Assembly: GCA_020444275.1 (NCBI GenBank)
Contig: JAHLLG010000001.1
Span: 310,001-374,000, forward strand
DNA length: 64,000 bases
Direction: 5' to 3'
Source of the DNA: Bacteroidota bacterium
GTDB lineage: Bacteria > Bacteroidota > Bacteroidia > Bacteroidales > UBA12077
Shown here: piece after piece, positions 55,741 to 56,800 of the stretch
Numbering within the stretch: position 1 is the first letter of the stretch
Layout: the number at the start of each line of letters is the position of its first letter
Program-made: the position numbers and the translations under genes
Notes under the pieces: model-generated
Database searches by the model: none
Seen by the model: only the letters and a program-made list of their open reading frames with translations
Told to the model about the DNA's origin: nothing

Positions 55741-56673
55741 TTATATCCACCTTTTTTTTCTGATCATAAATATGCCGATAAGTGCAATAGCAGAAGAAAA
55801 ACCAATAATACTCCAAAAAGCAAAATTTGTATTTTCAAAATGGTTTGGTACATTCATTCCGTAAAAGCTTGCAATCATTGTTGGTATAGCTAAAATAATT
55901 GTAATTATAGTAAGTTGCTTCATTACAAAGTTTAGATTATTGGAAATTACCGACGCAAAAGCATCCATCATTCCACTTTGAATATCACTATAAATATTGG
56001 CCATTTCAATAGCCTGTTTATTTTCTATTAGCACGTCTTCCAGCAACTCATCAGAGTAATTGTTAGTTTTTAAAAAACGAGAAGTTTTGAATTTGGCAAA
56101 TAAGAACTCGTTAGAGCGCAGCGATGTAGTAAAATATACGAGGCATTTCTCTAATTTAAGTAATTTATGCAGCTCCTCATTTTTAGTTGATTTCTCCAAA
56201 TCCTTTTCAACCAAGTTTGTTTGAAAGTTGATTTGTCTTAAATACCTATGATACATATTTGTTGTATGCAGGAAAAGATTAAGAATAAAATCTATCTTGT
56301 TTTTATGATCAAATGTTTTTTTTCTTCTATGATTGAAAAACTCAGATAATACATTATTCTCGTATTGACAGAGTACGAGGATATAATCATCAGAAATAAT
56401 AATTCCTAAAGGAATTGTAGAAAAAGGAATCCCGTTTTCAGCTGACTGGATTGGAATTCTCAAGATCATAACAATCTTATTATTTTCAATTTCCAGTCTT
56501 GATCGTTCATCAACGTCCATAATATCCAGAATAATATCTTCCGGAATATCAAAGGTTGTTTTTATCACATCTTTTTCCTCTGTTGTTGGTGAAGTTACGC
56601 TTATAACAGAACCTTTTTTGAAAGTTTGAATGGGTAGCAGTCCGCTTGAAATAATTTGCCAGTAAGATATCAT
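55741..56673 (-). CDS. corA: CorA-family magnesium transporter
   Basis: The protein has an acidic N-terminal cytoplasmic domain and long helices with many Lys/Glu. Two C-terminal membrane segments follow, with the GMN selectivity motif (SFYGMNVP, residues 272-274 by this start) between them and a basic tail. CorA-type channels conduct Mg2+ and sometimes Co2+ or Ni2+. I chose the ATG at 56673 (310 residues) because GGAGG lies at the ideal distance; an in-frame ATG at 56688 would add five residues. The leader upstream has a peptide frame and alternative hairpins. Confidence 0.88.
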   Translation of the reverse strand: MISYWQIISSGLLPIQTFKKGSVISVTSPTTEEKDVIKTTFDIPEDIILDIMDVDERSRLEIENNKIVMILRIPIQSAENGIPFSTIPLGIIISDDYILVLCQYENNVLSEFFNHRRKKTFDHKNKIDFILNLFLHTTNMYHRYLRQINFQTNLVEKDLEKSTKNEELHKLLKLEKCLVYFTTSLRSNEFLFAKFKTSRFLKTNNYSDELLEDVLIENKQAIEMANIYSDIQSGMMDAFASVISNNLNFVMKQLTIITIILAIPTMIASFYGMNVPNHFENTNFAFWSIIGFSSAIALIGIFMIRKKRWI

Positions 56674-56677
56674 TTTT

Positions 56678-56727
56678 AGTACCTCCATGTTTAATAATCA
56701 TAAGGAGGTACTTAGAAGTACTCCTTA
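56678..56727 (-). promoter_or_regulatory. Alternative hairpins controlling the corA ribosome-binding site
   Basis: On the mRNA, arm A TAAGGAGTACTT (56727-56716) can pair with arm B AAGTACCTCCTTA (56713-56701), one bulge allowed. Arm B can instead pair with GGAGGTACT (56686-56678), a perfect 9-bp match that hides the Shine-Dalgarno sequence of the ATG at 56673. The two structures exclude each other. Confidence 0.65.
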
Positions 56728-56769
56728 GATTTTGATTTGTATTGTTTTCTTCGGATAATAATCGTCCAT
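56725..56769 (-). CDS. Candidate 14-residue leader peptide of corA
   Basis: The frame reads MDDYYPKKTIQIKI and stops with TAA at 56727-56725, which is the first triplet of hairpin arm A. It starts about 17 nt after the predicted transcription start. The early Asp-Asp and Pro residues recall peptides that destabilise translating ribosomes when Mg2+ is low, such as MgtL. That it is translated is inference. Confidence 0.5.
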   Translation of the reverse strand: MDDYYPKKTIQIKI

Positions 56770-56792
56770 AATAAAAATTATTTTTGGCAGTG

Positions 56793-56800
56793 CAAATATA
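56793..56800 (-). promoter_or_regulatory. -7 promoter element of corA
   Basis: TATATTTG on the minus strand fits TAnnTTTG exactly. It predicts a start near 56786 and a leader of about 110 nt to the ATG at 56673. No good -33 element was found. The remaining gap up to 57000 is AT-rich, with nothing else recognisable. Confidence 0.5.

Follow-up and report, generated by a model that had tools for sequence, protein, structure and literature searches.

The window, a 64,000-nucleotide stretch of the genome of a Bacteroidota bacterium, contains on its minus strand a gene for a CorA-type Mg2+ transporter that is preceded by a short open reading frame and by three arms able to pair in two alternative ways. 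The original prediction placed a -7 element, a 14-codon leader whose stop codon is the first triplet of arm A, an arm B and a Shine-Dalgarno (SD) arm in front of this gene, and all of these parts were located, as follows.

56793..56800, minus strand: -7 element TATATTTG, read from the sequence, which we take to be a Bacteroidota-type -7 promoter element by its consensus; TAnnTTTG is kept in relatives
56725..56769, minus strand: leader frame MDDYYPKKTIQIKI of 14 codons, with its ATG at 56769-56767 and its TAA stop at 56727-56725
56716..56727, minus strand: arm A TAAGGAGTACTT, whose first triplet is the leader stop codon; A:B pairing covaries in relatives of another class
56701..56713, minus strand: arm B AAGTACCTCCTTA, with arm A or the SD arm as its partner; covariation in relatives, and an arm test value of p = 0.005 in the window
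56678..56686, minus strand: SD arm GGAGGTACT, forming 9 bp with arm B; B:SD pairing covaries in relatives
55741..56673, minus strand: corA, CorA-family Mg2+ transporter of 310 amino acids from the ATG at 56673, with a GMN motif near the C terminus; assigned by Pfam and by alignment with relatives

The predicted CorA identity was borne out by a match to Pfam PF01544 (E = 7.8e-47), and the protein scored 100.7 bits, below the NCBIfam corA equivalog cut-off of 200.75 bits. The most similar relatives aligned from the ATG at 56673 and not from the ATG at 56688. This second in-frame ATG (56686-56688) overlaps the SD arm and is a possible alternative start five codons upstream. No Rfam covariance model matched at its gathering score within the window; as the leader is also very short, routine annotation probably overlooks it. 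Intrinsic termination was set aside by eye, there being no T-run after arm B. No 16S sequence was found in the window's own genome.

Arm B was able to pair with the SD arm over 9 perfect base pairs (-13.4 kcal/mol for the helix alone) and with arm A over 11 base pairs with one bulge (-10.2 kcal/mol alone), so that both the perfect 9-bp pairing and the alternative helix were present as claimed. The optimal fold of the 114-nucleotide leader contained B:SD (-18.3 kcal/mol), and forcing A:B gave -17.5 kcal/mol; with a gap of 0.8 kcal/mol, the two states were nearly isoenergetic. A 143-nucleotide region was more stable than all of 200 dinucleotide shuffles (z = -3.16). The result was less clear for a 78-nucleotide piece lacking the leader (z = -1.83), for which 10 of 200 dinucleotide shuffles were equally stable. 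The mutually exclusive helix pair yielded p = 0.005, which is the floor with 200 shuffles. When the bases around the leader stop were blocked, the best fold contained B:SD, and when only the first codons were blocked, it contained A:B. At equilibrium, the SD core was mostly paired in all three settings, including the one in which only the first codons were blocked, with an unpaired probability of ≤0.09 after its first base; part of this pairing involved nearby coding sequence. An open state in the window would therefore depend on the order of folding.

Conservation of the leader and covariation of its arms

A sample of 20 genomes from the genus contained seven further CorA orthologues of the window type, and all seven were preceded by a leader. 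By the same rule, no leader was detected at nine loci encoding the other CorA type of the genus, for which identity over the best-matching stretch is 21-36%; two of the nine represent one and the same paralogue of the window's own genome. Named genomes were also searched, and the best 80 of 166 loci were kept; these were mostly labeled Bacteroidales and included isolates of Draconibacterium, Prolixibacter, Ancylomarina, Mariniphaga, Maribellus and Anaerophaga. After removal of duplicates and of the incomplete locus L090, the first set comprised 84 CorA relatives with readable upstream DNA. A short leader frame of 10 to 18 codons was present in 80 of these and missing in L054, L056, L075 and L086; as judged by eye, L054 apparently lost its leader by a frameshifting deletion. 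The first codons were conserved and the tail was variable in these 80 leaders, for which there were two main forms, MDEGPYHS-like (n = 39) and MDDY-like (n = 41, including 39 MDDYH). A TAnnTTTG motif occurred within 60 nucleotides upstream of the leader in 74 of the 80 relatives, with the last copy starting 28 to 38 nucleotides before the leader ATG. In the Yeosuana marina isolate (L052), the leader starts with TTG. Leaders were also seen in records labeled Chlorobiota (L067 and L076) and Ignavibacteriales (L081), and, if these labels of metagenome-assembled genomes are taken as given, the leader may reach beyond the Bacteroidota.

Class- and order-wide searches for CorA (E ≤ 1e-25) produced matches in 66 of 396 and 87 of 393 genomes, respectively. 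Upstream regions were pooled, and de-duplication reduced 220 regions to 215 distinct ones. A leader was called in 147 of the 215, a count that includes one probably false call (L167, MEDWVS) and three doubtful ones (L217, L218 and L220, MDDSLPP with a long spacer) and omits L152, L153 and L219, which look like leaders overlooked by the rule. The other 68 regions, from many other families of the class, had no leader, and leaderless genomes were common. The ATG-acidic-acidic start fitted 145 of the 215 pooled regions versus 29 of 4,300 shuffles. Six CorA matches lay outside the pool; five were without a leader, and the sixth (G641) was without upstream DNA. The MDDSLPP leaders of L217, L218, L219 and L220 are followed by a long G+C-rich spacer before corA. 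The arm test found no arms in the three of these loci scored as leaders (L217, L218 and L220), the layout of which may differ.

Covariation was examined in alignment A2, which contained 42 of the 47 MDEGP-type sequences, the divergent L154, L177, L181, L184 and L186 having been left out. For A:B, two-sided changes were detected in 8 of 9 pairs (24 cells versus a shuffled mean of 6.6) and, for B:SD, in 6 of 9 pairs (29 cells versus a shuffled mean of 7.0), with 88.0% of positions paired for both helices. None of 500 shuffles reached the cell counts, the percentages paired or the covariation scores of either helix. Slid versions of the alignment gave at most 15 (A:B) and 18 (B:SD) two-sided cells, below the values of the true registers. 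Two measures were weaker for B:SD: the number of two-sided pairs was reached by 11 of 500 shuffles and the number of pair types by 56 of 500, and a version slid by -2 had 7 two-sided pairs and 17 pair types versus 6 and 16 in register. Three-way changes in A, B and SD that kept both pairings were found in 5 cells, compared to a mean of 0.33 and a maximum of 3 in 1,000 shuffles. Arm B was off consensus in 52 cells, and both pairings were kept in 26 of these. A second alignment, A3 (18 of the 31 MDDYHA-type sequences, the MDDYHAS class), was too uniform for covariation testing. Other clades had the same layout with different arm sequences; at L102, where an SD is missing, the partner of arm B is the start region. 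The mutual exclusion of A:B and B:SD that had been claimed for the window is thus conserved and covarying in the 42-sequence class variable enough to test, and the leader frame itself is kept among relatives.

An alignment-free arm test was passed (p ≤ 0.05) by 115 of 147 leader-bearing corA regions and failed by 32, compared with 5 of 68 leaderless regions passing; in this version, leader-bearing regions began about 4 codons before the leader stop, and leaderless regions were 75 nucleotides long. With an equal length of 72 nucleotides, 110 of 147 leader-bearing regions (110 of 143 without the four doubtful leaders) and 6 of 68 leaderless regions passed. The leaderless regions positive in this test include L152, which probably does have a leader, spelled differently.

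The leader upstream of mgtE and searches for further targets

A search with the MDEGPYHS leader start gave 11 matches in 247 genomes. By position, seven of these were corA leaders; the four others preceded genes identified by Pfam as encoding MgtE, a transporter unrelated to CorA. An explanation confined to a single transporter was dropped, as the leader pattern also matches mgtE. A protein search with one of these four MgtE sequences matched in 132 of 294 genomes, and loci were taken for the best 30 matches. A leader was present upstream of mgtE in 12 of these 30; all 12 fell among the 17 loci that were at least 52% identical to L241, and none fell among the 13 loci below 52%. The arm test was passed by 11 of the 12 leader-bearing loci versus none of the 17 scorable leaderless ones. 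An acidic pair was required by the rule used to find mgtE leaders. Independently of this rule, a proline directly after the acidic pair or one residue later was present in all 12; in the MKDDPYS form, the acidic pair is shifted by one residue and the proline is still present. No CorA match at E ≤ 1e-25 was found in the 12 genomes with a leader-bearing mgtE (inferred for ten of them), against a background of 22% of genomes with such a CorA, which is suggestive only of an exclusion between the two. In the window's own genome, an ordinary MgtE (L253) is encoded without a leader. A rough sampling of MgtE through Pfam, in which several starts were misassigned, detected a strict leader in 1 of 27 loci (L251), with L264 added by eye.

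Searches for further targets returned few candidates. In the window's genome, the leader pattern occurred in five places versus two in a reversed control. Besides that of corA, the only short frame before a gene was L250; the gene was kinase-like by eye, and the arms failed the test (p = 0.69). The MDDYH pattern was found in 26 places, of which 11 were corA leaders by position and 15 were without the layout except for one doubtful CNNM case. A further pattern search of 294 genomes gave 16 places, corresponding to 14 sites: 12 were corA leaders, one was the CNNM case and one lay at the beginning of a long gene. In the CNNM case (L331 / L348; G485:C50, ~137953-138001), TATACTTTTGCA and ATGGACGATTATCATGCG form the beginning of a frame of 41 codons, the stop of which adjoins the start of a CNNM/CorC gene (Pfam), a member of a third Mg2+-linked family; the corA of this genome (L185) is leaderless by rule. 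A leader before a CNNM/CorC gene is a doubtful single case, as the reversed pattern alone gives 6 matches in 294 genomes.

Ribosome position and candidate signals

By the standard footprint limits, a terminating ribosome covers positions -15 to +12 of the stop codon. With these limits, 6 to 9 of the 9 arm A bases would lie under a ribosome positioned at the leader stop in all 42 A2 sequences, and arm B begins past +12 in 41 of the 42, a geometry that agrees with the cover of arm A proposed originally. The stop lies at arm A in two registers in 41 of the 42 sequences. With codon 5 in the P site, the edge of the ribosome would be at nucleotide 27, and arm A, which begins at nucleotides 41 to 44 in A2, would not be reached. 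This geometry points to the direction of control first proposed, in which finishing the leader would close the start site and early loss or pausing would open it.

The acidic and proline character that had been predicted for the leader was found in part. An acidic residue 2 was demanded by the leader-finding rule, so only residue 3 counts as independent evidence, and this was acidic in 79 of 80 leaders. The acidic pair at residues 2 and 3 was thus general, whereas a proline within residues 4 to 8 was present in just 81 of 147 corA leaders and missing in 66; among the 41 MDDY-class leaders of the first set, only 4 had a proline at residue 6. Tyrosine or histidine occurred within residues 4 to 8 in 126 of 147. 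Third codon positions varied most, and differences at codons 2 to 8 within classes mostly changed the amino acid (1685 versus 612 and 1836 versus 637 in pairwise counts). A bias at the codon level was also detected: codon 2 was GAC in 134 of 141 cases with Asp2, compared to 15% of Asp codons in window genes, and an NCG codon was present at codons 5 to 7 in 109 of 147 leaders, compared to 2.5% of all codons in window genes, with usage being taken from window genes only and leader counts being inflated by relatedness of the sequences. Codon 6 was NCG in 37 of the 41 MDDY-class leaders, be it for Ala, Ser or Pro. Retention of NCG across three residues suggests a codon- or RNA-level role, and the GAC/NCG bias would not be expected of a sensor that reads the peptide alone.

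We consider it probable that the element controls Mg2+ uptake genes by translational attenuation, with loss of ribosomes at low Mg2+ as its likely signal. In this model, which presumes leader translation and a co-transcriptional order of folding, the short acidic leader frame would be translated upon emergence of the mRNA. With a ribosome at the leader stop, arm A would be largely covered; the SD or start region of the transporter gene, be it corA or mgtE, would then be paired with arm B, and no transporter would be made. Were the ribosome lost or held at the first codons (Met-acidic-acidic), arm A would be free, A:B would form first during transcription and the transporter would be translated. 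The signal would most likely be low intracellular Mg2+, weakening ribosomes on acidic N termini by intrinsic ribosome destabilization, as for the enteric MgtL and MgtQ. Intrinsic ribosome destabilization was reportedly first described by Chadani in 2017. According to the available text of PMC11282234, two adjacent acidic residues are reportedly not enough by themselves in E. coli. The conserved frame, its placement relative to the arms, the covariation of both helices and the association with two families of Mg2+ transporters are direct observations, and the anatomy and conservation of the leader and arms are strongly supported. Control by the position of the leader ribosome is very likely. 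We infer, as likely, that Mg2+ is the signal and drop-off the sensor; the presence of the device on two unrelated Mg2+ transporter families fits such a signal. Of the overall proposal, the conserved frame, the placement of the stop and the exclusive, covarying helices stood, and the proline feature holds in part only.

Other sensors could be coupled to the same arms. The bias for GAC and NCG, and the retention of NCG at codon 6 whatever the residue, would be accommodated by a switch that responds to pausing at the first codons, caused by a factor or by codon or tRNA features at codon 2 (GAC) and codons 5 to 7 (NCG), and hence to general elongation stress. However, both target families, CorA and MgtE, transport Mg2+, and no stress genes are among the targets; the relatedness and window-only usage behind the codon counts also weigh against pausing, which we regard as unlikely. 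Classical amino acid attenuation, in which slow decoding of Pro, Tyr or His when charged tRNA is scarce would free arm A, is quite improbable. The frequencies of Tyr or His and of Pro at residues 4 to 8 are in its favor, as is the control by proline described for Salmonella mgtP (in the available text of PMC8092293) and for mgtL (in a reference cited in the available text of PMC11282234), but the codons are mostly single and form no runs, no residue is universal after the acidic pair, and the targets found are transporters with no biosynthesis genes.

The remaining alternatives dispense with the leader ribosome. A metal- or ligand-binding RNA would operate without leader translation; mutually exclusive helices before Mg2+ genes do resemble translational riboswitches, and the first codons are conserved at the base level too (GAC and NCG). 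Against this, the window had no Rfam match, conservation outside the arms is concentrated in the initial codons of an open frame, with third positions varying most, and the arm sequences differ among clades, which makes a riboswitch very improbable. A chance hairpin, or a plain hairpin at the ribosome-binding site without regulation, might be expected from short arms in AT-rich DNA, and the 78-nucleotide piece was unexceptional; this explanation is contradicted by the covariation and by the leaderless controls (5 of 68 for corA and 0 of 17 for mgtE) and is scarcely credible.

Known systems and use of Shine-Dalgarno sequences

In three-arm translational attenuators, the position of a leader ribosome picks between two helices, one of which hides the ribosome-binding site; unlike in those systems, finishing the leader is here predicted to turn the gene off. 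As described in the available portions of the sources, several enteric leaders share parts of this arrangement. The mgtQ frame of Salmonella (8 codons, between mgtC and mgtB; PMC8092293) is likewise an acidic short frame with alternative helices that controls translation of an Mg2+ transporter by sequestration of the ribosome-binding site, and its acidic residues are required. It differs in having four arms, with the site closed if mgtQ is untranslated, whereas here there are three arms and the site is predicted to be open without a leader ribosome; moreover, mgtQ is internal to an operon, follows a strong SD and acts on MgtB, while the present frame lies in a promoter-near 5' leader in another phylum and acts on CorA or MgtE. 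MgtL of the enteric mgtA (PMC11282234) also has an acidic N terminus (EPDP, with proline), and an unfinished leader at low Mg2+ turns the transporter on; it works by Rho-dependent transcription termination, whereas the anatomy here points to translation initiation, and many leaders here are without proline. CorL of corA in E. coli and Salmonella (PMC11552253) resembles the present case as a short frame before corA whose translation opposes corA and which has two exclusive structures, but it is Rho dependent and contains a three-way junction; acidic residues and prolines are scarcer in it than in MgtL. The element called the corA motif is a different one, with occurrences in Gammaproteobacteria and metagenomes only, according to the available text of PMC6429828.

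Leader-like frames are mentioned for Bacteroides thetaiotaomicron in PMC7366714, the available text of which does not name corA. The original claim that such a device lacks a precedent in the Bacteroidota agreed with the literature searched, in which none was found (most subscription journals and all bioRxiv preprints lay outside its coverage) and in which no account of Mg2+ sensing or regulation in Bacteroidota was found either. The proposed acidic-leader control of Mg2+ uptake in Bacteroidota, with action at the start site on two families, is apparently independent of the enteric cases. That the element is a widespread Bacteroidota Mg2+ sensor with no sequence relationship to its enteric counterparts, and that ribosome loss at an acidic start opens translation of CorA or MgtE, possibly in neighboring phyla as well, is a tentative proposal for which we see the balance as close to even. 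If the mechanism holds, ribosome stability would have arisen as an Mg2+ sensor on more than one occasion, and its form in Bacteroidota would be widespread and modular. One module on two unrelated transporters would then imply either replacement of the transporter under a kept switch or capture of the switch.

The leader was also associated with the presence of SD sequences. A 5-base SD was present at 109 of 147 corA genes with a leader and at 2 of 68 without one; among window genes, scored from the first ATG of each frame, the count was 3 of 48. According to the available text of PMC9976891, the 16S tail of Bacteroidia ribosomes is sequestered by bS21, bS18 and bS6, for which reason these ribosomes mostly fail to recognize SD sequences, and rpsU has an extended SD in many Flavobacteriales. 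If our reading is true, strong SDs occur where ribosomes normally ignore them, and initiation may depend on a special state of the ribosome. The element would then offer a natural test case for SD use and regulated initiation in bacteria mostly without SD-led initiation. Within the mgtE subgroup, an SD was present at the leaderless loci L284, L288, L290 and L292, and the leader-bearing L296 was without a 5-base SD.
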